From contig NW_020289989.1 in assembly GCF_003144245.1 (NCBI RefSeq), forward strand, positions 372,001-436,000: a stretch of DNA of 64,000 nt, given 5' to 3'. Shown here in pieces: positions 13,385 to 46,847 of the stretch (the first letter of the stretch is position 1; every line of letters begins with the position of its first letter). The notes under the pieces were generated by a model, which did no database searches, was not told where the DNA came from, and saw nothing but the letters and a program-made list of their open reading frames with translations. The stretch comes from Jaminaea rosea (Eukaryota; Basidiomycota; Exobasidiomycetes; Microstromatales). Both the position numbers and the translations under genes were made by a program.

Positions 13385-14023
13385 ATGAAGCCAGAGAGAG
13401 GTGGAGGTGGCGGCGCCGCATGGGGCGGCGGTCGCGGAGGTGGAAGTGGGGGCAGACGCGGAGGACATGGTGGCCGCGGGTTGGGTGATGAGCACCGCCC
13501 TCCCAGCAGGCAGGAGATGTTCGACGCCTGGCTCAGGCAGCAAGAGCTGCAAAGGGTCGCGGACATCGGCAGGCTGCACGCCATCCATGGCGCGCCTTCA
13601 ACCGGGTCCAGCGTCTTTACTGGCGCTCGCCCCCCTACCCAGGCCAGCGGCAGCAGCAACAACAACAAAAACAGCCACAGCAACAACAGCAGCAACAACA
13701 GCCGCCGTCGCCGTCGCATCAGCAGCAGCAACAACAGCGGCGGCAAGCGCATCAGCAACAGCAGCAAGAGCGCCTCTGCGCCTAAGCGCACGAGGCGGGG
13801 GTGCAGGGGGAAGCAGAAAAAGACAGTTGAGGGACAGCAATCGGCTGCCTCATCGTCAGGGGCGGCGGGAGCGGGAGGTGGAGCTGGGGCCGAGGGGGCT
13901 GCCTCGACCTCAGGAGGGGCTGGTCATGGGGGGAAAGACGGGGAGGGGGAGCAAGAGGTCCCTGCTGCCGAGGGCAGCAAGGACGAAGAGATGGACGAGA
14001 CCCTTTCCCTTTATGTTCCATAG
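13385..14023 (+). CDS. Small RGG- and Asn/Ser-rich basic protein, function unknown
   Basis: 212 codons from the ATG at 13385 to TAG at 14021-14023. The frame is open further upstream to 12413, but that part overlaps the decayed gene and lacks a better start. The N-terminus (residues 5-35) is an RGG/Gly-rich box, followed by a short helical segment (EMFDAWLRQQELQRVADIGR), an Asn/Ser stretch interrupted by RRRRR, a Lys/Arg patch (KRTRRGCRGKQKK) and an acidic Gly/Ala/Glu tail ending in LSLYVP. RGG plus low-complexity Asn/Ser is typical of RNA-binding, condensate-prone proteins; that role is inferred from composition alone. The simple sequence also makes a chance open frame possible. Confidence 0.4.
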   Translation: MKPERGGGGGAAWGGGRGGGSGGRRGGHGGRGLGDEHRPPSRQEMFDAWLRQQELQRVADIGRLHAIHGAPSTGSSVFTGARPPTQASGSSNNNKNSHSNNSSNNSRRRRRISSSNNSGGKRISNSSKSASAPKRTRRGCRGKQKKTVEGQQSAASSSGAAGAGGGAGAEGAASTSGGAGHGGKDGEGEQEVPAAEGSKDEEMDETLSLYVP

Positions 14024-27610: not shown

Positions 27611-29802
27611 ATGTCGACCAAACACATCTTCGACAACCCGGAAGGTCTAGTAGACAAGACGCTTCGCGGAGCCATTGCCGTCAACCCGGCGCTGCGCCTC
27701 TACAAGCCGCACAAGGTCATCTACGACTCGACTCACTCCAACAGCAAAGTGGCCATCATGGCTGGCGGTGGAGCGGGTCACGAGCCTGGACAGGCGGGAT
27801 TGATCGGCAAGGGTATGCTCGCTGCGGCTATCAGTGGAGACGTCTTTGCCAGCCCGAGTGCTGCGCAGATTTGCACTGGAATCGACTTGGCCAACACGGA
27901 CAAGTGGGTGTCGCGATGAGGGAGGGAGAGATGGATTTGCTCGCTGCTGACCACTTTCTTGCCCACAGAGGAGTCATCTTCATCATCAACAACTACACGG
28001 GCGACCAGCTGCACTTTGGTCTCGCCGCCGAGAAGTGAGTCGCGCACGCCGCGCACCATGCTCCCACCCCCACACGCGCTCACGTTCCTACTCCCCCACC
28101 CGCAGAGCACGCTCCGCACTCGCAATCTCGGGCAACAAGACATCCGGCGGAGTGGAATGCGTGACAGTAGCAGACGACGTTGCCGTGGGACGAGCCAAGG
28201 GCGGCCTCGTCGGGCGTCGTGGCTTGGGCATGAACCCCTTTTCATGCAAGGTCCTCGGTGCAGCAGCTGAGCGTGGCTTGAGCGTCAAGGAGATCAAGAA
28301 GTTGGGCGACACGCTCATCGATAACTCGGTTACGATCGGCACGTCGCTCGACCACTGCCATGTGCCCGGACGCAGCAAGGACCCCAAGGAGTGGGGAGCA
28401 CTCCCGCAAGAGGCGTGCGAGATTGGCATGGGTGCGTGGGGGCTGCCTAGAGGGCGGGTAGGATCGAGCTGACTTTGTGTACGCCGCGGCACGCAGGCAT
28501 CCACAACGAGCCCGGATTCAAACGTCTGGACAAGACGCCTCCCCCTGACAAGCTCATCGCCGAGATGTACGTGCGCGTACCATCCAGGCTTCGAGCCGTC
28601 TGCTAACCCCTCGCTCGCCCGCCCGCCCGCCCGCTAGGTTGGACTACATGCTCAACCAAAACGACAAGGACCGCGCCTACCTCCCCTTCTCCGCCGGCGA
28701 CGCCCCCGTCCTCTTCATCAACAACCTCGGCGGCATCTCGCAGCTCGAACTCTTTGCCGCCTTGGACGAAACCATCGCCCAGCTCGGCAAGACGTACGAC
28801 CTCCACCCGGCCCGCGTCTACTGCAACGCCTACATGACCAGCCTCAACGCCCCCGGCTTCGGCATCACGCTCGTCAAGCACCGCGAGGTCACCAAGGCCT
28901 GCGGCGTCGATCTCCTCGACTTGCTCGACGACCCTACGGACGCCTACGCCTGGACGGGCGTTACGCGCGGCTGGCCCTCGAACCCGCGCGACCGCGAGGC
29001 AGAGGAGAAGGAGGCTGAGCAGCGTCTCGCCGAGGTGCAGAAGAAGGGCGGCGCGGTCAGCATGCTCGAGGCGGATGCCAAGGAGAAGGCAGACGGGCCC
29101 TCGAACGCAGACCCAGAGCAGACGAAGAAGGCCATCTGGTCCATGTGCCAGGCGGCGATCGATGCTGAGCCCTCGATCACGCGACACGACACGATTGTGG
29201 GCGACGGAGACTGCGGTACCGGTCTCGCTACGTGAGTGTGCGCCGCGAAACCCACGCCCAAACACCTCGCTGACACCTCTCTCCTTCCCGCCGCGCACAG
29301 CTTCGCCAAGGCCATCCAGCAAGGCCTCGACTCCGGCAATGTAGACCTCAAGGTAGCCGCCTCGACGGTCATGTCCATCGGCACCATCGCCTCGGACGTG
29401 TACGGCGGTACATCCGGCGCCATCTACGAGCTCTTCCTCGCCGGCCTCGCGCAAGCCTTCACCTCCATGCCTCGTCAGCCGGCCACCATCAAAGAGTGGA
29501 GCTCCGCCTCTTCCCAAGCCCTCAAGAGCCTCTTCACCTTCACTCCCGCCCGACCGGGCATGCGTACGCTCATTGACGCGCTTGAACCTTTCGTTGTTGA
29601 GCTTGAGAAGAGCCAGGATCTGTCCAAGGCAGTCGCGGCTGCTAAGGAGGGGATGGAGAAGACCAAGAGGCTCGACGCTAAGCTGGGCCGTAGTGTTTAC
29701 CAGGGAGAGGGTAACGAGGAGATGAAGCAGACGCCTGACCCGGGAGCGGAGGGGATTGCTGAGGTTGTGGCGGGATTGCTCAAGGGGCTGGGAGGGAAAT
29801 GA
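27611..29802 (+). CDS. DAK1: Dihydroxyacetone kinase (DhaK-DhaL fusion)
   Basis: Six exons: 27611-27903, 27969-28034, 28106-28431, 28497-28566, 28638-29231 and 29301-29802; 616 residues, with introns of 65-71 bp. The DhaK domain (about 1-380) has the IMAGGGAGHEPGQAG loop, SGDVFASPS and the substrate-binding histidine region SLDHCHVPGR (about 205). The DhaL domain (about 400-612) has the ATP/Mg loop GDGDCG (about 440) and ends with a helical bundle. The enzyme phosphorylates dihydroxyacetone to DHAP in the cytosol (glycerol and methylglyoxal/formaldehyde-linked metabolism, DHA detoxification). Length and both domains are complete. The 3' end of intron 4 is a pure CCCG tract directly before its TAG. 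It marks the left border of the accessory island. Confidence 0.95.
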
Positions 29803-30329: not shown

Positions 30330-30940
30330 TTAGCAGCCACCGCACGAGCATCCTGGAGCGTCCCCGCAGCAAGTCGATTGGGAATTATAGCTACAGCAGT
30401 CACAGATACCTGACCGAACTTGAAGATAAGCAAGGCCGTGTATTCCGTAGAAGGTGTTGGGGCCAGGGGAGCGAGTGGCAGGGGTGGTAGCGAGATCGCG
30501 CGCGAGGGGGGTCGGGCTGCCTTGAACCTCTTGAGGCGAGGTGTCGTGGCGGACGTTGAGCTGTACGAGACGATGCGGAAGCCTTCGTATCCTTAGCATC
30601 GTAGCAAGGCAAAGCGATATTCTGTATCAGGCATTGCACCGCGGTGCTCACTCACCTCATCGCGCTCCTTCTGGCCAGGCTCGGAACGGGGAAAGGCAGC
30701 ATCGGCCTTCTTCCTGAGCACCTTCTGCAGGACGGAGCCGGACTGGAGTTGCCCATCGTCACGGGCGATCTTGACGCCCTGCTCCAACCCAGTAGCAGCG
30801 ACCTGATCACGAGCAGCAACGACTCCATAGCGGGTGGCGTGGCGAGCGGTATTGGTGCTTGCGTGGGTGGTGGGCATAAGGCCCGCGATGAGAGTGAGGC
30901 TGATCAAAAGGGCAGCCTGGCTGAGGCAGAGGAAGCGCAT
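30330..30940 (-). CDS. Secreted 8-Cys module protein 1
   Basis: Exons 30940-30656 and 30560-30330, with a 95-bp intron (GTGAGT...TACAG, phase 0); 171 residues. The N-terminus MRFLCLSQAALLISLTLIAG is a clear signal peptide. The middle is hydrophilic with a dibasic KK (LRKKADA) and two L/V-x-A-R motifs. The C-terminus is the module CDCC-x7-CC-x5-CSC-x2-C, after which the protein stops. A near-closer AG would also end the intron but puts exon 2 in a frame without the cysteines; the TACAG acceptor is chosen because it restores the module seen in six neighbours. A TATA-like TATATA (31003-31008) lies about 63 bp upstream of the ATG. Family not recognised; secretion is inferred from the signal peptide, and disulfide bonding from the even cysteine count. 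Confidence 0.78.
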
Positions 30941-31587
30941 CGTGTGATTGTGTCGTGTGGTGTGGAGAGGGTCAGGGAAGAGGGAGGGAAAAAGGAGGGG
31001 CGTATATACGATCGCGAGCGAGAGCAGCCCCCAGTGTCGGCGTCCCCAACAGGGTCTGGGGCACTCTAACGACGGCGCGACCCCCGGTCCTTCATTGCGG
31101 CTTGTGCGAAGGCAACAGTCGCGCACGGCCGCTGCACTGCTCGCTCTCACCATTGGGAGCGTTCGCACGCAAGTAATGCCGCTATCAGGACGGTTACTGC
31201 GGCTATACAGTCTCACTGTGGTTCAGACTGCGAGCATTGAGCCTCGCGCGACCATGCTGGTGTGCGCACGCAGCCGCACCTTGGCAGTGACGGCTTGGCG
31301 TACGGTATCGCCGGCAGTGCAATCGTGGGAGATTCGGGAGAAGCGAGCGGTAGCAAGCTTGCGGTGTTGTTCACACGCAACAGGAGAGGGCGAGACAACG
31401 GGTGAGAGGCTAAAGTTGATGATTGGATGTGGACTCGTGTCTCGCGTGAGAGATCGAGAGATAGGGGAAGAGACATCGTGTGTGCGCGGCGCTGCCGCGT
31501 GAGTTGCCGTACGTGGCATGTGACGAGATGCGGCGGCGGCTGTCGTGTACGGACAGTGAACGAGGTAGCGACGCTTTGTATAATAGC
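30941..31587. other. Intergenic region between two cysteine-rich genes
   Basis: Contains the promoter of gene 1 (minus strand) and possibly the 3' end of gene 2: if its last intron is not spliced, the gene 2 frame would stay open to 31410. Nothing else supported. Confidence 0.4.
31003..31008 (-). promoter_or_regulatory. TATA box of secreted 8-Cys protein 1
   Basis: A palindromic TATATA within CGTATATACG lies about 63 bp upstream of the start codon. The next family gene has a similar element at nearly the same distance. Confidence 0.5.
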
Positions 31588-32603
31588 CTAGAACTGGAGG
31601 TGGACGACATTATCGGTAGCAGTGACCTGGTAAGCAAGGCAGTGGATCGATCAGCACGCGGTTTGTACTGTACCTGTTGAAGATGGTCGCTGCGGCTCAC
31701 CATGCGATCGTACGCCTCCTCCCACATCAGATGGTCGCGCCCAACAACATCCATGGAGCACCCAGAGCACGTACAGGAAGGCTTAAATTGGCAGCATCTG
31801 GCAGAAGAGGTCCCGCTGCTGCAACATTGGCAGAACTTCGAGGGAGCGGGTTTCTAAGTCGATACGGAAAGACAGAATGCGAGGTGAGAGTCAAGCAGGA
31901 CGCGACTTCAGGTGGTTCGACGAGGGGACTGACCTTCCTTTTTCGCTCGGTGAGCATGGCGTCACTTTGCGTAGTGAGGTCGCTGTCACGGGGCGTGCTG
32001 ACGGTCGACACAGCTCGAGGGATTCTGGGCTGCTGAAAGCGCGCGTCTCTGGTCAGCATCAAGAACCGTGGCAGACGCGTTGCCGCAGCTCACCTTCTCG
32101 TATCGACCGGGCAGATCCACAGCATGCCTGCAGTTGAAGCACTCGCAGTCACCCGCTTTCCTGCAGTCATTTGACGCGGGATTGGCCGTGGGCTGAAGTA
32201 GCGAAGGGAGATCAAGGCGAGGTCAACGACTGCGGACGACCGACGAAGCCTGTTGGAATTCACCCTCGTTGACTGCTTGGGCTGCGCATTGGTCTTGTTG
32301 CGCCCCGCGAGCGTGCTGTCTGTATCGGTGAGAGAGCTCCGGTCCTGAAGGGGACAATGCCTGGCGTTAACGCGGGGCTCCAATGCCGCTTAATCAGCTT
32401 CCACTGACCTCTCTATCGTGATGGAAGGTGCGCAGGGCCGGCACGCTCTCGTTGTAACCACGATGCACAAGATACCCGTGGTCGGAGAGGCTGCCCTCCG
32501 TGCGAAGGGCCAGGACATCAATGGCTCGTCCCGTGGCGCCTGGGCCGATGAGGGCGAGGCCCAACACAGCGGGGAAAATGAAGGAGAGGAAGGGAGGGCG
32601 CAT
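31588..32603 (-). CDS. Secreted 8-Cys module protein 2, multi-exon, with an extra half module
   Basis: Proposed exons: 32603-32409, 32344-32264, 32192-32094, 32032-31934, 31853-31674 and 31626-31588. Introns of 47-80 bp are all phase 0, mostly with GTCAGT or GTGARY donors. The signal peptide is MRPPFLSFIFPAVLGLALIG. Exon 3 holds a half module C-x5-C-E-C-x2-C. Exon 4 ends in a polybasic RKRK. Exon 5 holds the full module CQCC-x8-CC-x5-CTC-x2-C, of the same CxC subtype as protein 1. The last, 47-bp intron is doubtful; without it the frame runs on to 31410. The exon 4 acceptor is a NAGNAG site, so one Gln may be present or absent. A TATA-like element (32664-32671) lies about 65 bp upstream of the ATG. 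The cysteine pattern across five independent joins argues that the model is right in outline. Confidence 0.62.
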
Positions 32604-33534
32604 GGTGTGGACTGGTGCTGGTGAAGAGGAGAGTGCTTCTGTTGGAGGCGCAGAAGGTGAAGATGATATAGCCTCTTGTCGAGGTCATGACCTCATCGCA
32701 GCGGGAAGTGCCGCACGCGATACTGTACCACGGCGGCTCAGAATACCGTATAGTGTAGACGCGCCAGGGCTGGTCGTTTGACGGGAAGCGATCGACTGCT
32801 CCCCTAAGCCCTCGCCATAGTTGATAATCGCTCTCGCCCAGCAATGTCGTCATGCCCTGTGACCCCGGCGCTCGACGTTGCTCCAGAGCCAGCGAAACAA
32901 AGGTCTGAGTCTTGCCAGGGCAGTGAATCGTTCCGCTGATGCCTCCACTCATGACCTCGCTCGAGCCGGCGATGCTCCGGATGACGCAGAATAGTGCCTT
33001 GATCAGCGGCTGTGCAATGTTCTGCAAAGTGTCGGCACCTCCAACAACCAAGCATGACCAGACGCCGTCATGGAGTGATGCTGTACAAACGTGATTTTTA
33101 CCGCCAATTGGTCCCCTCGAGAATGGATTGCTATGACGTCGATGGTTCTTTCCTGCCCAGACAGTACCTGAGTTTACCCTTCGCCCTCTTGCTTGCGAGG
33201 CGAGATCGAATGTCTTGCAGTACGAGAGTGAGAGCTCACAGCTACCCATGCAGGTATGACCGCCCATGCTGAGAATGCCCGCTACGCCCACCATTAATTA
33301 ATTGACTGCCATCATGAATGTTGCGGCCAGCAAGAAGGCGCGAAAGAATATCGCCTGCGCACGAGCAAATTCGGAGGGTTGAGGTTGAGTAGAGGCAAAA
33401 TCCGGTGGGAGGTTGTTGCGCGAGGCTAAGCAGAAGCGCACGTTGCCCAAAGAGAGCTGCTCAGCGATGGAAATTCACAAAAGGCCTCATACCCATCGCA
33501 AAGAGACTCACCGCACCCCGCACACTTTGACACA
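32604..33534. other. Divergent region between secreted proteins 2 and 3
   Basis: Should hold both promoters. A minus-strand frame from an ATG at 33294 stays open to 32518 and includes Cys-containing, globular-looking sequence (VCTASLHDGVWSCLVVGG, IKALFCVIRSIAG). It overruns exon 1 and the TATA box of gene 2 and has no clean signal peptide, so I do not call it a gene. Confidence 0.4.
32664..32671 (-). promoter_or_regulatory. TATA-like element of secreted 8-Cys protein 2
   Basis: CTATATCA on the minus strand, about 65 bp upstream of the start codon, matching the position of the TATA box of gene 1. Confidence 0.45.
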
Positions 33535-34030
33535 ATGCGCTTCGTCAAGTTCGCCCTCGCAACGCTCACGCTCGCTACGCTTGCCTCTCTGGGCCAGGGA
33601 CTTCCAGCCGCTGAAGCTCGCGCCGCTGATGATCGTGGTCAGGTGCGCAGTAGATGCAGTAGGTAGTCGAAGCGCGCTCTGCCACTGACGAGGAACCGAC
33701 CTTGCCTTCCTGCCTCGAGCCGCTAGGACACCCACTCTCTACGCAGCAAGCGAGCCTTTACGCCGCAGATCGCAGACATTCTAGGTCCTCGAGAGCCGGG
33801 AATGGCTGGCACCCTCTACGCTCGCAACTCGAACCCTACCTGCACCTGTTGCGCGAACTATGGTAGCGGAGTGAGTTGGTAGAGCCGGTGCAGCGGTGAG
33901 CTGCACGAACGACGGGGCCTCGGAAATGCTAGCGCCTCGGTCGCCGAAGATGATGTGGCTAACACTGTGCCCCACTTTTTCTCAGGCATGCTGCTCGGGT
34001 ACTATCACGGGCTGTTGTATTGGCTGTTGA
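33535..34030 (+). CDS. Secreted 8-Cys module protein 3
   Basis: Exons 33535-33642, 33727-33870 and 33986-34030; introns of 84 and 115 bp, both phase 0; 98 residues. The signal peptide is MRFVKFALATLTLATLASLG. Then come a short spacer with a dibasic site (SKRAF) and an LYAR motif, and the module CTCC-x7-CC-x6-CC-x2-C, whose last Cys is the last residue. The second intron splits the module after CTCC-x6; its acceptor (TTTTTCTCAG) is strong. Unspliced reading hides five of the eight cysteines. With almost nothing but signal, spacer and module, this is the minimal member and the best guide to the family. Function unknown; likely a secreted, disulfide-rich peptide precursor. Confidence 0.82.
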
Positions 34031-34807
34031 GGCGCTTGTCAGAGGGCCCGGGAGGTGAGAGAGGCATACTGTCGCGATGGAACGGGTGAGTGGCGCTGCG
34101 GCTGAAAGAGTTCGGGAGCTCGCGCCGCTGACACCGCCTGCGCTCCCGCTGCACATTCTGACGCTATAGGAGACGATATTGAAGATTGCATGAGGTCTTG
34201 AAAGGCGAACGAATGCTGATAAAGGCTGTAAATGAACAAGGTGAGGATGTGAAGATAGAAAGAGCGAGCAAGTCTTGGGAACGGATGGCCGGCGGGTGGC
34301 CTGACACGACACGTGGCGACATTGCCGAGGGCGGAGAACACGCTAGCGCGGGAGAGAACCAACCTTCAATCTCTTTCACATCCAACTTCCTGACACGCCA
34401 TCTGTTCTTTGCACCGACGTGGCAAGAGCGAAGCTCTGGTACCTCTACTTGTCATCACCCGCTGCCAATCTCCACGCTCGACGGCTCGTCTCTCAGCGAC
34501 TATCACATTCTCGTGCTGCCTGCCAGGAGCGTGGGCATCAGTGCACCCGAGTCGCGACTCCAGTCTCTGTCTACTCAGACGCTGTCTAGCTTGGCGCAAA
34601 GAAAACAGGAGATAGACGGATGGATCAATTCAAGAGGTGTGGTACAAGCGAAAACAGCGTGGGAGCGATGCTGGCCGCACTGAGAAGCTGGCCCCACTGA
34701 ATCGCAGAGGGTGCGCAGAGCGATTCGGATAGGATGAGCGAAGGCCCAGGGTAGCTTCCAGTCGTCTCCTGATGAAGCAGCAGTGCTGCGCCCTCCTCTC
34801 AGGGAGA
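34031..34807. other. Convergent interval between secreted proteins 3 and 4
   Basis: A plus-strand frame (34186-34683) is open but lacks an ATG start, a signal peptide and cysteines. No gene supported. Confidence 0.45.
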
Positions 34808-35210
34808 TCAGCGATCGTCACAGCATCCTGGCGAGTTCTGACAGCAGCCTGAAAACATGTAGACATTCAAGCGCTCTGCGTCAGCAACGAGTCGCTACTA
34901 CTGTACATGAGGTGTGTTCGAAGGCAGACTCACGTCCTGATCCCACGCGCTCACAACACTCGCACAGAGTATAGCGAGCCAGTAGATTTTCCTCAGGAAA
35001 AGCGACGCCACTATGCCTCTTCGTTGCGATGCTCTTGTCACCTGTCACTGGGCCAACGATGGTGCGGTCATTCAAGCTTCGAGAGCCAAGCGGCCCGCCT
35101 TTGATCTGGAGAGCGTCGTGCTTGGGGTCGCTGCGAGGGTGTCCATTGGCGCTGAGAAGAGCAGAGGCGACCAGCACCGGGGCGAAAAGGCTGGTGAGGA
35201 ATGGTTGCAT
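34808..35210 (-). CDS. Secreted 8-Cys module protein 4 (terminal Cys absent)
   Basis: Exons 35210-34934 and 34848-34808, with an 85-bp intron (GTGAGT...GTTTTCAG, phase 1); 105 residues. The signal peptide is MQPFLTSLFAPVLVASALLSA. The spacer has a dibasic KR (ATKRHSG) and LLARYTL directly before the module. The module is CECC-x7-CC-x5-CC followed by DDR and stop: the eighth cysteine is missing, leaving seven, so one cysteine may be unpaired or form a dimer. The intron splits the module after CECC, as in proteins 3, 5, 6 and 7. Reading through the intron gives a different tail with two unrelated cysteines. Confidence 0.78.
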
Positions 35211-36005
35211 ATTGTACGAGTTGTGGGTGGTCGAGAGGCAAGAAAGCTGTGGACAGCAGCAGACGAGTCAAGATGATGTGGCGTGGGCACAGGGCAGCAT
35301 CAGCTCCGCACAACACCCGATGCAGCGGAGACCCACAGAGCAGACACTAGAAGGTCATGCTTGCGGCAAGCACTCGTGCCGCCGTGCAAGATTGTCAGGA
35401 TGGACATCACGCTCTTGACGTCAAAAAGGAGCTGCTCCGTGCTCGATTTCAGGCCGGCATGGCCGAGGCTAGAGACTCTGATCATTCTGTCCGCTATGCT
35501 TCAGGATGGCATGCAGCGTGATGGAAGCCGCCAGAGGGGCCTCCGTCCTGCTCGTACTATCACACGACGAAGTCAAAGCGAACCCACATGCCAAGCATTC
35601 TGGGACAGGCTCGCTCGGCAACAGGACTTGCCCTCGCGGCTGAATGGAAGGGGCAGACTGCGCGCATCGGCCCGTTCTCATCTGCCCTTCGAGCACAGAT
35701 TGCAGACCAAGCCTGCTCAGAGGCTTGTGACGCTGATTCGCTCGAAGCCTTTGTCGAGAACTTCCGGCGGAATAAAGTCTCCAATGCTTGCCATTGCGGT
35801 GACCCTGGGGTTTTCATCAGCAATAGCGACCCACCGGATTGCGCCCGGGTCAGTCGCACTTGTGGGTTGCGAGATACTGACCAAGGCTACGTGTCGCCTC
35901 TAGAGAGCTGAGCGTGCGGGCGAAATCCCTAACAAAGCTCTCAAAGTCCCAGTCCATTCGACCTCTCGCCAGCAACCTCGCCTGACATCCACCGACCCGC
36001 CAGCC
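35211..36005. other. Divergent region between secreted proteins 4 and 5
   Basis: A plus-strand frame from an ATG at 35588 (107 codons) has several cysteines but neither a signal peptide nor the module pattern. The region probably carries the promoters of the two flanking genes. Confidence 0.4.
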
Positions 36006-36312
36006 ATGCATCTCCTCAAGCTCGCCTACGTAGCCATGCCGCTCATCGTCTTTGCCCCTCTCGGCCAGGCCATCGCGTCTGCTGAGTCCGTCGCGGGGAT
36101 GCGCAGGAATGAGAGCGAGCTGTGTCAGTGTTGTGCCGCTCGGGGAGCAAGCTGTGGGTACCAAAGTGACTGCGGCGCGTCACCGCCGGATCACCTCTTA
36201 CCAGAACTGCTTCTTCTCCTTGCACCCTATGCATCAATTTGAGCTAGTTTGTTGCGGGCCCCCACCGCCAACCTGCTGCAACACGTGTGGTGGTATATTG
36301 TTGAGACTCTAG
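36006..36312 (+). CDS. Secreted 8-Cys module protein 5
   Basis: Exons 36006-36153 and 36248-36312, with a 94-bp intron (GTGGGT...GCTAG, phase 1); 70 residues, the shortest member. The signal peptide is MHLLKLAYVAMPLIVFAPLG. A dibasic RR (GMRRNESE) sits only six residues before the module CQCC-x7-CC-x6-CC-x2-C, followed by a seven-residue tail (GGILLRL). The intron splits the module after CQCC-x6. If cleaved at RR the product would be a peptide of about 34 residues. Without splicing the frame ends at 36242 and lacks the second half of the pattern. Confidence 0.82.
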
Positions 36313-37423
36313 GAAGCATCGCCATGCAACTTGAGGTGAGTTGGGAGGTAAGACACGCTGCGGCCTTGGCTGACCTCGGCTGCATTCAATTTTCCAAGCA
36401 AGATGCGCCGCGTGGCGACTTGGGAGCACAATCAAGCCATTTGTCACGTCCAGAGGAGAGAAGGAGAATGATGAGAGGAGCCTTTCAGGTGACGCGTACG
36501 CCGAGGCGCCGCCGTCGAGGCAGAACCTCGCGAGGGTGCGGATGATGGGCAGGAAGAAGAAGGGAGCTCGGGCTCCTCTTGATCTGGTGCGCTGGCGCAC
36601 GTCTTGGGCCAGCAGAGTGCTCAAATCTTCTGAACAATTCTCTTTGTCCTCACATTTCACCCTTTGACTTTGAATTTTCGAGGCTCCTTTGATTCGTGAA
36701 GCAGAGCATGAATGGCAGTTGGATCGATGAAATGAGGTGAAGGGGCGGGGCCTTTTGCATCACCTCGTTGTAGCGCCACGACAGGAGATAGGTACACGGG
36801 CCGGCTGAGTGATCCAGTGATTGCGTTTCGACACGAATGGGTGATCTGTCGAGACAAGACTGCCCCAAGGCGGTGCTTCTGTAGCGAGTGCGCCCGTCTT
36901 TGCGGTCGCAGGATTGGAGACTCACATTGAGCCCGAAAGGTCTCCTTTTGAGTCATGTAGCTGCTTCGTGAGCCTAATAGCTTGTCAATGCAGCGAGAGG
37001 AGGGAGCGGAGGGAGCGGAGGCAAAGTGCGTCGTGATTTTGCTCTGCGCGTGGCGGTTCAAGAGGCGCGAGGCCAAGCGAGCGAGGAGGCCTGAGCGCGA
37101 TTTCGAGAGGCACAACTTCTCTTCCGTCCTTTCTTACCGCGGCCGCCAAAATGGCGAGCGCGAGGCCATACTCGGCGGCAATAGCTTGCCCGAATTCGGC
37201 GGTCACGAGGCTGTGCGGTCCGACCGGTATCGCCAAGCTGCGCGTAGTTGCTGTCGTGGCCACCCGGAGAGCTGCTGCCGGTGGCTGAGGTCCCGTGGCC
37301 GCCAAGCACCTCTTGTCAGGCTCGTCGGCGTTGAAGCACGATGCCTTCATAAACCCAGCTTTCTCAAGCGCCCTCCCCAACGCTCACCACACTCTCTTCC
37401 GCGACGTCCAGTCTCTCTGGAAA
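36313..37423. other. Intergenic region upstream of secreted protein 6
   Basis: No complete gene supported. A CC-x6-CC sequence preceded by a TAG that could be an acceptor lies at 37249-37278; no signal peptide or CxCC exon could be tied to it. A TATA-like TCATAAA (37348-37354) lies about 70 bp upstream of the next start. Confidence 0.4.
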
Positions 37424-38127
37424 ATGATGCTCAAGCTTACTAGCCTCATCCTCGCGCCCCTTTTGCTCCTTGCGCTCATTGGTACCCTTCCTTCTGGGGC
37501 TAGAGCCTTTCGCATGGCTCTCGCTGCCCCTCTCGACGCCGGAGGGGGCAAGGAAACCAGCCCATTGACTGCTCAGCGTCACGCGAGCGACTCTCTGGCA
37601 GAACCAGGCGCTGCTTGGACGACAATGCACGCCAGGCGCGTACCTCCCGTCGTCGCTACCAGCGATCTCACCAAGAAGTCAACAACGTGTGATTGCTGCG
37701 GCTCAGACTTTCCTGGACACTGCTGCAGCGCCACAGACCCCAACTGCTGTGCAGGATGCCCAGGTCTGTCCCTGGGGCTCCAAGCTCCGCTCGTAGCAAC
37801 CAGTGACCATCCCCGGAACGCAGGCGTCTCGGACCGGAGCGACGCTTCGGGTAAGGTCGGCCGCGGCGACCCCAACACCTCAACAAGGCGTCGTGACCGA
37901 AATGGAAAGGCCGATAGCAAAGCCGCCTCTCTTTTTGCCCGCCAGACCCTGTGCGAATGTTGCACGGCGAATGGTGATGGTGAGCAGGTGCAAAAGTGGT
38001 AGAGGGTAGTCTGTGCCACCTGCTGACCCTGCTTCCCCCTCGATCGACTTTCGACACCCACAAAGGTTGTTGTGCAGCATCTGGACGACCAACTGGATGC
38101 TGTGGCAGCTGTGGTCTTGTCAATTGA
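37424..38127 (+). CDS. Secreted double 8-Cys module protein 6
   Basis: Exons 37424-37979 and 38066-38127, with an 86-bp intron (GTGAGC...CAAAG, phase 1); 205 residues. The start is the first of two adjacent Met codons. The signal peptide is MMLKLTSLILAPLLLLALIG. Module A (about residues 94-117) is CDCC-x7-CC-x6-CC-x2-C, intact within exon 1. A basic linker follows with TRRRDRNGK (Kex2-type site) and SLFARQTL, then module B, CECC-x7-CC-x8-CC-x2-C, split by the intron and followed by GLVN. Cleavage between the modules would yield two eight-Cys peptides from one precursor. The acceptor AAAG is weak, but it is the one that restores the pattern. Confidence 0.8.
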
Positions 38128-39267
38128 CAGAAGAGAGCATCAAGTCCCGGGACGGCCGCCACTCAAGTCTCCGACGGCCGAGAGAACGTTGGGACCTAGT
38201 ATGATCTCAGGCGGCTCTCTCGAGAGCGACGGCTTTGTTCTCGGCGAGCTACCCGGCACGATGCAAAGACGACTTCACACTGACCTGTATAAGCCCGAAA
38301 GTGTTCAATGCGATGGTCGAGTCATTCGACACTTTCCCTTTTTGTGCTCGATGAACCGTACATGTACAGCTTGTTGTGTACCACATTCCTCTGCTCGTCG
38401 TCGTTGAGGCCGCTTGTCATTGCACGCTGACAAAGCGGACGACAGCAACAAGACACGTGATACTGCTGTTTGGTTCTCACCTCTCACCTGAAGCTCGGAT
38501 GCCATATCATGCGCGTCAAGCGACCGACGGCGGATGATAGGGCCAGCTGCATTGAGGGCAAAGGCCCCTCGATCCGCTCGAAATGTAGGGAGTGGAAGAC
38601 TCGAGAGGCAGAGAGCGAGGAGTTCAGCGACGTCGCGGCCAGGACCAGCTCGTCTGTTGCAGGTTCGTGGCAACCAAATACTGTACTCGCCCCGTTCTCG
38701 CCCGCCTTATTGCCCTATCATCCCGGTAGTCGTGGAGCGGGCGGGCAGCAAATGACGTCGATACCCTCAAAAAGAAATTCCGTCTACTGTTCACACAATT
38801 TGCCACGATCGCGCAAAGAGTGCGCAGCAGGCGCAGCCATCGAGGTGCCAGGGCGCGGAGCCATTGTCGGTCGGAGGAGATGGGGCAACTTTGCTCGCGC
38901 GAGCCAAGCTGATTCGCCCTTCTACATCGGACGTCGGCGACAGGCGGTCGCCGCCGTCGGATCGCCACAACAATCCGCTTCGGAATTACACTGTTCACCC
39001 TGACCCTGTACATTTCTTCAGAGTGAAGCGTTTACATAGATTTGCCCGCGCCTGATGTCACAAGGGCTATCGTGGGAAGAGCGTTCGGCCGGAGGGCTGC
39101 TCAAAGCAATATCTTGCCGAGCCAAGTCAACCTATTGCCTGTCACCAGCCGTCCGGCAAGATGGAACGTGTTCCACCTCACGTTTATGCTGCATAACTCC
39201 AACTGATCGTCCCCTCAGCACCTTTCTGAATGCACCATCACTTCGCTTTCCCCGTCCTATCACGCCC
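38128..39267. other. Intergenic region between secreted proteins 6 and 7
   Basis: Short frames on both strands have no signal peptide or module. A CTACC at about 38362-38376 was inspected and does not continue into the family pattern. Confidence 0.45.
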
Positions 39268-40224
39268 ATGCGCCTCCTCATGCTTGTCACTTTGGGCGTC
39301 GCGCTCACTGCGCTGCTCGCCACCGTGCCAGAGGCACTTGCGCTTCGCTCAGTGATCGCTGCACCTCTCAGCGCCAGCATTCTCCCTGAGTCGGATAGAT
39401 CCGATGAAAAGGCTCGAAGTGACGACAAAGTCGACCATGCTGGCCGAGCCGAGTTTGACACCGCGACCGAACGCGGCGAGCACGCCACAGACCTTGCCAC
39501 GGACCTCGCCACATCCGAAACCCTTGTCGCTCGCGACTGCTCCTGCTGTCTCTCAATGCACAGAACTCATCCATGCTGCGGACCTAGCTCGCCGGGCTGT
39601 TGCACAGGCTGTATTCTGCCAGAGAGAGGCCTCCCTGCTTCTCAATTGGCCCTCCTCGCAGCTCGTGTCGACGCCAATCCTTGGTTCCTCCGCCACGATT
39701 TTGCTGGTAAGATCGCCGATATCAGGGCGTCTCTGGACAGCTTCAACTCTAGCACGGCACCCAAGATGGTCGCTGTCCAGACTCGTTCGGAGGCTCCGGT
39801 CTCACTCATCGGCCAACACAAGCGCGAAGAGACGCATGAAGTCGCTGCTAACCCGTCGGAGCAAGAGGTCGGCGAGTCGATGCTCGAGCGTATGTTGTAC
39901 CACAGCATCAACGGAATGGTACCGCGTGGACTTTGCGAGTGCTGCTATCGCTCAGGTTATACTTTTTGGTGGGTACAGAAATAGTCGTGATTGACTCGGG
40001 CAGGTGCGGCTCGAGTACGAGCTGATGAGGAGTCGCAATGGGGGACAAGGGCGCTCTTTGGTGGTTCGCTGACCAGCTACTATCTCTCAAATGCCAGCTG
40101 CGCAGCGACCGACAAACATTGTTGTGATACTTGTTTTAATGGTACCGATGCTACCATGCGCTCCCCTTTTCGCGCTCTCCATCTTTTGGACGACGGTGAC
40201 GCGGACGGCGAAGTCGTTGGCTAG
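39268..40224 (+). CDS. Secreted double 8-Cys module protein 7
   Basis: Exons 39268-39968 and 40098-40224, with a 129-bp intron (GTGGGT...GCCAG, phase 2); 275 residues. An upstream open frame exists, but the ATG at MRLLMLVTLGVALTALLATV gives a clean signal peptide. After an acidic spacer and the motif LVARD comes module A, CSCC-x8-CC-x6-CC-x2-C. The linker has a dibasic KR (GQHKREETHE) and runs to GMVPRGL and module B, CECC-x7-CC-x6-CC-x2-C, split by the intron inside the x7 segment. A tail of about 28 residues follows. Same two-module plan as its neighbour protein 6 on the same strand, so the two probably arose by duplication. Confidence 0.8.
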
Positions 40225-41040: not shown

Positions 41041-41513
41041 GGTCTGAATGAAGTTGATACTGTGGCTATCTCGCATGGCACTCGCTCGTCTTCTTCTGCC
41101 TCTATGCGGTGGTGGCGTATGTAGGCGGCTGGATTGTCGGCCATTTGTACCCTGCCTCCTCATGCTCCTTTCGGAATCCGACCCAAATATTGTACATTGT
41201 TGCTTGGGTCCTCGCCTTGAACCACTTCTGGCGGATCCAGGACGCTGCCTTGGCCGTTGCAGGGCAGTCGGCGCCAGAAGAAGAAGAAGTCGTCCGTGCA
41301 CTTGCAGTGGGCGGAAGCGATGTTCGTCGAGAACTCAAGGTTATCGTACCTCTCTGGGACCGGCGCGGGCGCGAAGATTGCCTTCACAGTCGGCTCAAGG
41401 GGGAGATGTGCAGCTGTTTGCCGCTAAGACTCATCCCAACCGAGGCATTGCGAGTGGTGGGCTTTGAAGTCGAAGGCCAGATGGCAAAGTGCGACCGCGG
41501 TTCGACTCCGTAG
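41041..41513 (+). pseudogene. Possible membrane-protein fragment
   Basis: The plus frame after an in-frame stop reads CGYLAWHSLVFFCLYAVVAY with a second hydrophobic stretch (ILYIVAWVLALNHFW) and then a soluble tail to TAG at 41511-41513. There is no ATG before the first membrane segment, so it is either an internal exon or a remnant. The opposite strand is also open (hydrophilic, ending in PTIQPPTYATTA), so the coding strand is not certain. Confidence 0.3.
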
Positions 41514-43520
41514 GGGAGCTGCACGAACGGGCGCGGCGCCATGCCCAGAGCCTCCCTGCCTGCCTCAAGCAGACGGCGCTGATTGGCGCAGAGCTGCAGC
41601 TGTGCTTTAGCTGACGGGGAGTACACCCCCTCAGGTCGCCTCTTGTGCAGCACCCACTCCCAGTTTGACGGCTTGCGAAGCAGCAGCCCGATCTTGCACT
41701 CCTCACGGTCGAGAGCGCTCGGATGTGCCACATCGAACAGCCCTTGGCCGTTCGGCTCCTCGCAAAACATGGCCGTCGTCATCGGCCTCCCGTCGCTTCG
41801 GCAGTCCAGACCCAGCTGCTCGGCAACATCGCGCGCTCCTCCTGAGACCCAGGTCGGCAGCGCAATGTAGCTGTGATACGCGAGCGGCTGTGGCGGGGGG
41901 ACGCCCGGCCTGGTGTTGATGCAGCAGAGGCCGTTGACCTCCAGCAAGCCAAGGCGACCCTGACGAGCCAGGAGGTTGAGGCTGTCGATGCTGCGAGCAG
42001 AGCCATCGAGTGAGGGCGGGACGGTTTGACGTGCCTGCAGCTCCACCTTCGGCTGCGATGCTCGGGCCAGGCGCTGGTCCTTCTCCCTTTGGTCAAGCCA
42101 TCCGAAGACCTTGTCTTGCAGATGGGTGTGTGACTTGGGAGTCGGAAGGCGCAGGTTCTGCACGCGCAGCGGCCATTGGTGGGCCTGGTCACTTTCTTTG
42201 TGACCCTCACGCTCGCGCACCGTCATCGCCCTTGCCTCAAGCAGCAGCCCACCGACCAGGTCCGCTCGCTCCTCCTCCACCGCAGGCGCCATGCTCGCCA
42301 TCACATCGACTTGGCGAATGTCACCGCTGGCTCAACGATGGCAAGGCGGTCTTGTCTCTGCTCATAAGTGAGCGCGCCTGCTCTGTCGATCATTGCGGTT
42401 CGGATGTCGTTGTCTGCTTCCCTGCAGTCTGCTGATGATAGAATGGTGCGCATTCAGGACCAGCGATGCTCCACTTGGCACGCTCTCCTTCATGCTGAGC
42501 ATGCCGCTTGAGATCGTGGCGAGATTTGCCCGCATAGGCCGTGTCCCTCGTATGGACGCCGAGCGCGACCTCCACGTACACCGAGTATTGGCTGGCGGAG
42601 AGTGCGGAAGCTTTAGTCATGTCGTCGCTGCTTGTGTCGCCGGTGCCAAATTGGGCGATCGTACGCTCGAGCGAGACGTTTTCCTGTTCTCGAAATCACT
42701 CCGCGTCCGGAACGATGCCTTGCTCGAGGAGCTCCGTTAGGCTAATCCACAACGGACTCCATTGCACGCTGCTGTCGGCTAGCAGGCACGGGACGATCGC
42801 ATTGGCCTCTGCCTTCTGCTTGAATCAGGCGCTTGGCTTGACGGCGATGTGGACGTCCTCTGCATGCACTGCACGAACAATACGGTACCTTAGACAGCTG
42901 AAGCACTACTGCAGTGACTTGGCTGCAAGCGCGCCTCACCTTTGCCGATCTCAGTCAGCAAGAGAGCCGTCGCAACCATCAATGAGCGACCTGCTGATAA
43001 GGCCGGCCCAGGCAGGCGTGGGTACATCTCGTACTGGGGGACCTAGTCGGCAGACCGCCAGAGGCATCCTCCGGCCCAGCTGATCGGTACTTTGTTCCTG
43101 ACCACTCCTTGCTCATCCTTCCTCGTCTCTTTTGCCATGATTGCTTTGCCCGCGATGTCGAGACGCGAGCGAAAGGCCGCGCGGAAACTTTGCAGGTTGA
43201 TTACGGTCGATGGGGGAATGATGTCGTCGTCGTTGAATCTGTGTTGCTGTGAGACGTTGAAGAGCCGTTTTGCTTGCGCCTCGAACGAGTTGTCTAGCTG
43301 GTCCTCCTCCTCGCTACAGTATCACTGTCGTCGTCCGGTCCGCCCGCGTCGCCAGCCTCGCCAGCCTTGTCGTGTCGCTTTTGGATCGAAGCTTTTAACG
43401 ACCTGCGGTGGCATCTGCTGGACCATCTTGGTGTAGCGGATGTTCGAACTCCCCCAGCGCTTTGACTGTCCCCCTGTGAGGCTGCCCGTAGACGACTATT
43501 GCAGTCTCGTGGCGCCACGG
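41384..43520 (-). pseudogene. Unrecognised gene in decay, with a GIY-YIG-like stretch
   Basis: On the minus strand, protein-like sequence continues from about 43520 to 41384 but changes frame several times: about 43440-43290; about 43280-43082 (AKRLFNVSQQHRFNDDDI, RSRLDIAGKAIMAKETRK); about 43060-42950; 42620-42430; and a 306-codon block to 41384 with LAYHSYIALPTWVSGGARD and KPSNWEWVLHKR. The 42.5-kb block (VYVEVALGVH...AYAGKSRHDLKRHAQHEGE) resembles a GIY-YIG nuclease core, which would be consistent with a selfish or repair origin, but the match is short. No ATG-to-stop gene of full length exists. About four frame breaks are apparent. Best read as a host or accessory gene remnant. Confidence 0.4.
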
Positions 43521-45191: not shown

Positions 45192-46847
45192 TCACTTGCT
45201 CTCCTCGACCTTCTTGACCGCCTCCCCAACGCTCCCCACCGTCGTCCCCACAACCGGCACGTCTCCCTTCTTCTCCCCTCTCGGCTTAACACGCGGATCG
45301 ATCCTGCGCTCACGATCCATGAACTGCCGAACCACATCGTCACTAATGGCGGCCTTGCGCTCCTGGAATCCTTTGACCACAGCCTGCAGCACGGCGATGC
45401 ACTTCTTCTTCATCTCTCCGCTGGTCAACTCTCCACTCCTGTACTGCTGCGCCGTGCGCTCCATCTCCTCATCATCGTCAAGGAAGAAGCCCATGTACTG
45501 GTACGCAACATCCACATCCGGGTTCCCACCTAGCCTCTTGTGCTCCTCAAGTGTATCCCTTCCGCCCGAGAAGGCGTGCTTGTTAATCTTGTCCTTGATC
45601 TGCTTAGCCGTATCGGTCATGGCGATATTACTGTTTGGGTTCGAGGCGCTCATCTTTGTTCCCGGGCCTTGGAGCGCAGGGAAGAACTTGGCGTGGATCA
45701 ACGAGGGGCGAGGAAGCTTTAGACGACCAGCCACGTCTCGTGTTTGGCGAAAGTAGGGGTCTTGATCGATGGCGCATGGGATCAGGCAGGGGACGTCGCT
45801 GCGTTCTCCGAAGATCTGAGGGAAGGAGGAGGAGAAGGAGGGGGCGGCTTGGATGCTGACGAAGTGGAGCTTGCCCACCGAGTCGGAGTCGTTGAAGCCG
45901 AATGTTCCTGCGTGGGGAGGGTGGGGCGGGTCAGATTGGCGCGGCGTGGGGGACGTGAGGGGCGCGCTCACCCTTGGACTGGCTCGTGGTAATGGCTCGA
46001 GAGATGGTGCAGACGTTGTGATAGAAGGGGCTGCGTGCGCGGCGAAAAGTTCAGCATCTAGCTCCCAGCCCCGCGCATCGCACCCACTCACCCGCCCATG
46101 TAATCGAGGTCGTTGAAAATGAACGTCTTGTCCAGCCTGAACCCGCACGCAATGACGTCCCTCGCATTCTCAAACGCAAACCGCCTGACGTCCTTGAGAG
46201 TGAGTCCAGGACGAAAGAGGAACTTCTCGTCATCGGTGAGTTGCACGACGAGCGGTACGTCGAAGACGTCCTGGAGCCCTGCGAGCGGGAGCGGCGGCGT
46301 CAGCGCGAGGACGAGGATGGAGCGCGAGTTTACGTCTTGCGCACGCACATTTGGTGAACAAGAATGGGATCAAGTGGCCCATGTGCATGGTGTCACTACT
46401 CGGCCCGCGCCCCGTGTACAGGTAGAACTCCTTTCCCTGCTCATACCGCGTTAGGATGGCATCCAATTCTCGATGCGAAAAGAAGGACCCGCGCCTGAGC
46501 AAGGGATGAGGGCGATGTCCCGTCACCTTCTCGAATCGTTCGAGCAGCTCGGGCGTGATGTGGCGAGTACCAAACTCGTTGACTGGCGGGGCGGTGGGGC
46601 GAGGAGGGGAGGGAAAACATGCAGGTCAGCCCGAGCTGGGACAGCATGGTTCAATGGTGCACGCTGCACACGCACTGAGCTTGTCGTAGTCGATTGCCTG
46701 GACTTTACCGTCTGCCCCTGCTGCGCCGCTCACGTCCCAGGGCGTGACCTTTTGTTCTTGCGCTGACTTCGAGGCTGACGGAGTGGCTTGCGGATCGTCG
46801 GCTGCGGCCAGATCGGCCATCTTCTGTGAGAGGTCCTGAGCGGCCAT
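45192..46847 (-). CDS. WRS1: Cytoplasmic tryptophanyl-tRNA synthetase
   Basis: Five exons: 46847-46676, 46582-46349, 46278-46092, 46030-45972 and 45907-45192; introns of 61-93 bp; 455 residues. Class I aaRS hallmarks: the HIGH-type motif in [10 protein letters not shown] (about 120) and KMSAS (about 301). Other family blocks are [45 protein letters not shown] and [11 protein letters not shown], all as in eukaryotic cytosolic TrpRS. The enzyme charges tRNA-Trp in the cytosol. No mitochondrial presequence is visible. It borders the accessory island on the right and shares a 277-bp divergent promoter with UTP18. Confidence 0.96.

Follow-up and report, generated by a model that had tools for sequence, protein, structure and literature searches.

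A candidate family of secreted precursors with a dense eight-cysteine module in the leaf-surface fungus Jaminaea rosea

Several groups of described fungal proteins resemble, in part, the genes analyzed here, a cluster in Jaminaea rosea whose predicted products share a module of eight Cys in about 24 residues. The cluster occupies positions 30330-40224 of the stretch shown above (64,000 nucleotides, referred to as the window). In the Kex2-processed pro-domain (K2PP) effectors, as set out in the passages of PMC8528282 that concern them, a leader, a pro-region, a KR/RR or LxxR site and a mature part follow one another, an order that the predicted precursors may share. That source uses LxxR as an expanded Kex2 motif for finding pro-domain effectors, beside the canonical KR and RR, and describes Kex2 as requiring Arg at P1 and favoring Leu or another aliphatic residue at P4, with a variable P2. 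KEPs, according to the part of PMC6339444 that treats them, hold identical or near-identical repeats between Kex2 sites, generally KR or RR; the prospect of several peptides from one secreted precursor is shared by genes G, H and J below. Cylindracin/PRI3 of Cyclocybe, also a basidiomycete protein, has a signal peptide, a short acidic pro-like region ending in LEGR and an eight-Cys domain. The recombinant domain is antifungal and loses its activity on heating with dithiothreitol, and when cylindracin was made in Pichia, about half of the product was cleaved behind Arg-36 (..ALEGR) (PMC11532979). Cce1 of Ustilago maydis, which likewise belongs to the Ustilaginomycotina, is secreted and has eight Cys (PMC6638113). 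NipA (13 Cys) and CyrA (8 Cys), secreted proteins of nematode-trapping fungi, are known here by Cys number, not by spacing.

Gene models lie on both strands of the cluster. There are seven of them, A (-), BC (-), D (+), E (-), F (+), G (+) and H (+), and together they hold nine modules. The initial annotation had proposed these seven genes and nine modules, and both numbers are borne out by the gene models, with seven of the nine modules also found by a strict pattern scan set against shuffled sequence. The module reads C-x-CC-x(6-8)-CC-x(5-8)-C-(x)-C-x2-C, spans 23-25 residues and consists of Cys to about one third. All eight Cys are present in eight of the nine cluster modules, and when the three modules of an eighth gene, J, are added, eight Cys at near-constant spacing are found in 11 of 12. 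E ends in CCDDR and lacks the last Cys. Thus the eight-Cys module proposed at first is confirmed, with two amendments: the first loop, given as x(7-8), is x(6-8) on account of G2, and E has seven Cys. The modules take two forms, CC-x2-C in D, F, G1, G2, H1 and H2 (and in E, minus the last Cys) and C-x-C-x2-C in A, BC, J1, J2 and J3, and their Cys order is C-CC-CC-CC-C or C-CC-CC-C-C-C. From the sequence, they appear to make up a real, small and homologous family that is apparently undescribed. Its members are the following, with window coordinates for all but gene J.

30330..30940, minus strand: gene A, 171 aa; exons 30940-30656 and 30560-30330
30333-30404, minus strand: gene A module, CxCC x7 CC x5 CxC x2 C, with LQVR before it
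31701..32603, minus strand: gene BC; exons 32603-32409, 32344-32264, 32192-32094, and 31853 to at least 31758
31758-31832, minus strand: gene BC module, CxCC x8 CC x5 CxC x2 C
33535..34030, plus strand: gene D, 84 aa; exons 33535-33642, 33769-33870 and 33986-34030
33841-33870 + 33986-34027, plus strand: gene D split module, with LYAR before it
34808..35210, minus strand: gene E, 105 aa; exons 35210-34934 and 34848-34808; split 7-Cys module with LLAR before it
36006..36312, plus strand: gene F, 70 aa; exons 36006-36153 and 36248-36312
36123-36153 + 36248-36288, plus strand: gene F split module, with MRR before it
37424..38127, plus strand: gene G, 205 aa; exons 37424-37979 and 38066-38127
37688-37759, plus strand: gene G module G1, with KK before it
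37952-37979 + 38066-38112, plus strand: gene G split module G2, with LFAR before it
39268..40224, plus strand: gene H, 275 aa; exons 39268-39968 and 40098-40224
39538-39612, plus strand: gene H module H1, with LVAR before it
39934-39968 + 40098-40134, plus strand: gene H split module H2, with MVPR before it
Contig C11, L003 1000-2438, minus strand: gene J, 421 aa; exons 2438-2211, 2120-1810 and 1726-1000

Four modules are uninterrupted in the DNA (30333-30404 and 31758-31832 on the minus strand, 37688-37759 and 39538-39612 on the plus strand). The five others, D, E, F, G2 and H2, need the removal of a GT-AG intron, and they are complete because of intron choice alone; splicing of the cluster genes is predicted. 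In these five, the intron lies at most three bases before, or within, the second CC pair; the intron phase is 0 in D, 1 in E, F and G2, and 2 in H2. The strict scan recovers seven of the nine cluster modules. It misses E because the final Cys is absent and H2 because an intron splits the CC pair. When the strict pattern is given a free GT-AG gap, it joins the same half-modules as our models for D, F and G2, though not for E and H2. The module patterns, which were composed after the modules had been seen, match nowhere in the reversed sequences or in shuffled DNA (60 dinucleotide shuffles for the window, 300 shuffles for the cluster). One scan pattern gave a false join of two adjacent gene J modules. 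Elsewhere in the window, at 13650-13766 (-), runs of Cys codons in frame mimic the module in loose scans, and this stretch was left out of the family.

According to Kyte-Doolittle hydropathy, each of the seven models starts with a hydrophobic leader. The signal peptides proposed for these genes are supported to this extent, with secretion itself a prediction. The proposed frame is the best of six by a synonymous-codon score in all seven models (in G by only 0.001) and by a full codon score in only two, BC and D; BC was scored in a three-exon form, and the training set was made of long open frames, not all of them Pfam-checked. The model of gene A is letter-identical to the public Jaminaea rosea protein BDZ90DRAFT_281627 (P0001), and an alternative acceptor in this gene, with which the reading frame is lost, was dropped. 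The public model of gene D, BDZ90DRAFT_262474 (P0003), as mapped, has exon 2 from 33727 and its last exon at 34170-34193. Except for the earlier start of exon 2 it agrees with our model through the first half-module, and the acceptors of both introns (33643-34193, +) differ between the public and the module-completing models. Gene BC is the weakest model: its middle exons can be drawn in several ways, its 3' end is uncertain with the last frame open to 31410, and the public proteins returned include no model of it. A half-module-like C-x5-C-x-C-x2-C lies in an open frame ahead of its module, at 32130-32165 (-); this stretch may belong to a real exon or represent a second module that has decayed. 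The first-drawn splice models of D and BC were dropped.

The family extends beyond the cluster, and gene J is its eighth member. In the genome searched (16.6 Mb, 21 contigs, the window belonging to contig C15), the gene A module as query led to a second locus on contig C11 (E 0.001, 52% identity). There, gene J encodes a leader and three complete modules; in J1, an intron separates the second CC pair from the CxC. Ten protein queries against this genome, seven from the cluster and three from gene J (all modules but E and H2), gave J as the only new locus, through the module of A. No cluster module retrieved another, and the matching J module, in turn, did not retrieve A, so the queries have low sensitivity and the family may have more members than counted here. 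A strict scan of 196 kb of other C11 and C15 stretches gave no match except gene J, and in the stretches around it (C11:475001-535000) the strict scan found no further member. Genes G and H share their layout and align over their full length (26% identity, E 3e-10, in a single comparison); judged by this alignment, they are a duplication that has since diverged. In the non-Cys columns of the 12 modules, identity is 16.6% versus 10% after shuffling, and none of 2000 shuffles is as high, although shuffling without realignment favors the observed value and overstates the case somewhat. On this measure the modules look homologous beyond their Cys, which favors common descent over a shared Cys pattern alone.

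No known family had been recognized in the initial annotation, and the Pfam, NCBIfam and PDB searches agree. Pfam gave no match up to E 10 for nine full-length entries representing all eight genes (E, F, G, H, P0001, P0003, BC, D and J) and 12 alignment entries, NCBIfam gave none for 12 alignment entries (modules and full-length E), and PDB sequences gave none up to E 10 for a 12-module profile. For gene G, the PDB sequences gave three matches only, with E values between 0.99 and 3.1. Weak matches are lost to the HMMER filters, and it is unchecked whether Pfam and NCBIfam hold a model for each named family. With this limit, CFEM, defensin, KP-type, Ecp and other curated families were set aside, as none of them was matched in Pfam or NCBIfam. 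The Cys order of hydrophobins is C-CC-C-C-CC-C; the module differs from it, and a hydrophobin match is absent from Pfam up to E 10. The profile search that had been suggested as a check also gave no named family: among 5.8 billion proteins, the 12-module profile selected 185 candidates and returned only Jaminaea rosea proteins. These candidates include no PRI3 protein, and no PRI3 sequence was compared directly. An alignment of six proteins returned only Jaminaea rosea proteins as well (scoring was confined to the 8000 candidates with the most shared words), and for gene G alone none of 979 candidates reached E 10 or better, the protein of gene A included. The protein searches need shared five-residue words and a query-like length, and divergent or mis-annotated fungal relatives can escape them. 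Literature searches among open-licence papers gave none that is recognizably on this family.

The sequence in front of the modules suggests how the precursors may be used. Beyond the first 25 residues and outside the modules, seven of the eight precursors have no Cys and J has one, with BC in its three-exon form; its four-exon form has four additional Cys in the half-module-like arrangement. An aliphatic-x-x-R motif, [LMIVF]xxR, picked after inspection, is found within ten residues before the first Cys in eight of 12 modules, versus 22.6% of 862 background windows (P 0.0014), and the strict LxxR is found before seven. Of the four modules without the aliphatic-x-x-R motif, G1 shows KK and F shows RR instead, BC shows KR or KK according to how the gene is modeled, and J1 shows no such site. 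Together, an aliphatic-x-x-R or dibasic site precedes 11 of the 12 modules, suggesting that the module is the released peptide. The tandem module copies and the second locus also count in favor of pre-pro-proteins.

We therefore put forward, at about even confidence, a family of pre-pro-proteins from which Kex2-type processing would release mini-peptides of four disulfides each, one to three per precursor, for action outside the cell. As to the processing itself, we lean slightly in its favor. An N-terminal signal sequence, to judge from the hydrophobic leaders, would bring the precursor into the secretory pathway. The 23-25-residue module would fold in the endoplasmic reticulum around four disulfides, which we infer because eight Cys are near-constantly spaced and almost no Cys occurs elsewhere. 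A Kex2-type protease, given the position of the motif, would then cleave the precursor behind the aliphatic-x-x-R or dibasic site, which lies a few residues ahead of the module. Such cleavage would yield very small cross-linked peptides, three from J, two each from G and H and one from each of the other five genes, and the freed peptides would act outside the cell. Jaminaea rosea (Exobasidiomycetes, Microstromatales) is listed among phylloplane fungi in the relevant part of PMC7766764. Chemical interaction on the leaf surface is the likeliest role, and, since Jaminaea rosea is described as living on leaf surfaces, competing microbes are somewhat more probable targets than the plant. Even so, a role directed at microbes is offered tentatively.

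Several observations weigh against this proposal. The net charge of the modules is -3 to +2, unlike typical cationic antimicrobial peptides, and the E module, one Cys short, cannot make four disulfides alone. At P2, the eight aliphatic-x-x-R sites have Ala four times, Val twice, and Ser and Pro once each, whereas the account of Kex2 in PMC8528282 gives Lys as preferred and, of these four residues, only Pro among the five next-best. For the cut seen in Pichia, the authors consider proteinase B a candidate, and the native mushroom protein is described as uncut (PMC11532979). The parallel between cylindracin and our processing model is consequently weak and partial, and this slightly lowered our confidence in the model and in the proposal as a whole. 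The public protein P0003 is without the second half of the D module, and the full codon score is higher in an antisense frame for A, E, F, G and H. In addition, structure prediction gave no usable fold for the modules: AlphaFold reached pLDDT 59.9 and pTM 0.24 for G1 alone, and pLDDT 57.8 and pTM 0.21 for the gene A module with five other unspliced modules. No orthologue attests to selection on the Cys pattern, and we infer secretion, splicing, cleavage, disulfides and role alike.

The cluster lies between recognizable domains. On one side are Dak1 and Dak2 domains (28549-29799, +), and on the other a class I W/Y tRNA synthetase domain (45195-46169, -). Both fit the flanking DAK1 and WRS1 genes named at the outset, except that the synthetase domain cannot separate W from Y. 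Beside the cluster, at 41387-42331 (-), an open frame of 315 codons has G+C-rich third positions and no Pfam match.

Among other explanations, plant-directed secreted effectors of the Kex2-processed pro-domain type, acting in the apoplast, survive best, and we regard them as possible though unlikely. The leader, pro-region and LxxR fit that class as described in PMC8528282, the copies are clustered and divergent, and a smut of the Ustilaginomycotina, Ustilago maydis, uses the Cys-rich effector Cce1 (PMC6638113). However, the passage on Jaminaea rosea in PMC7766764 describes a leaf-surface fungus and names no disease. The protein searches gave no relative from another species, with full coverage of smut proteomes unchecked.

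Fungal metallothioneins are intracellular proteins of very high Cys content with CxC and CxxC groups. The modules are alike in Cys content and in these groups, and it is conceivable, if improbable, that they are secreted metallothionein-like units, in which CxC, CC and CxxC would coordinate Cu(I) or Zn through their thiolates, with extracellular metal capture or detoxification as the function. About one third of the module is Cys, and the CxCxxC ends of A, BC and J1-J3 are in the style of fungal metallothioneins. Signal-type leaders, however, would route the modules through an oxidizing compartment, and Phe, Tyr, His or Trp occurs in ten of the 12 modules. Neither Pfam (up to E 10) nor the PDB (12-module profile, up to E 10) gave a match to a metallothionein, though HMMER filters can hide weak matches.

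Slightly more remote still are structural or cell-surface proteins, in which the modules would cross-link precursors into the wall or onto surfaces without being released. The long pro-regions of G, H and J and the tandem modules would suit such a role, and native cylindracin remains uncut in the mushroom surface layer according to PMC11532979. Basic sites directly before 11 of the 12 modules argue against it, as do D, E and F, in which leader, short pro-region and module make up nearly the whole protein. Artifacts, whether from chance or from misreading of open frames in a GC-rich genome, are very improbable: the public proteins returned cover only A and part of D, the proposed frame tops the full codon score in only two of seven models, and small genes with module-internal introns are easily mis-modeled, but the absence of module matches from all shuffles and from the reversed sequence, the synonymous-codon score of all seven models, the non-Cys identity above that of unrealigned shuffles, the full-length G/H alignment and the three-module gene J at a separate locus all speak against it.

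If the modules are released as we propose, they would be, to our knowledge, among the most Cys-dense secreted fungal peptides. The family stands out by its density of Cys, its precursors with several modules and the constancy of its element, about 24 residues in length. It may, though we consider this rather doubtful, represent an undescribed and possibly species- or genus-restricted class of mini-peptides whose eight Cys are grouped in three close pairs or clusters, with a new tiny fold of four disulfides or metal thiolates, and with divergent precursors that yield one to three of them when cut at single-Arg Kex2-type sites. With eight Cys in about 24 residues, the modules are a compact system for testing Cys pairing, and a leaf-surface fungus is well suited to the question of whether such families have a part in microbial competition besides plant infection.

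In the part of PMC6638113 that discusses them, most effectors are without orthologues outside the genus; therefore, an orphan secreted family is unsurprising in itself. The Cys of Cce1 given there (32, 38, 56, 67, 82, 95, 97 and 104) extend across 73 residues without a CC pair. These positions do not fit the spacings of the module, and the Cce1 family was set aside. Cylindracin, compared by its description in PMC11532979 only, is unlike the modules in having a 59-residue domain of pI 8.07, one per protein. In contrast to the near-identical repeats of KEPs, the modules of G, H and J are divergent, have mainly their Cys spacing in common and are preceded mostly by single-Arg sites, which places them outside the KEPs as defined in PMC6339444. 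If released, they would make G, H and J precursors of several different cross-linked peptides, a layout that the passages on KEPs and K2PP effectors in these sources do not describe. Compared with the K2PP effectors of PMC8528282, the predicted mature part is here only about 25-40 residues long in most genes, is dominated by Cys and may be present in two or three copies.

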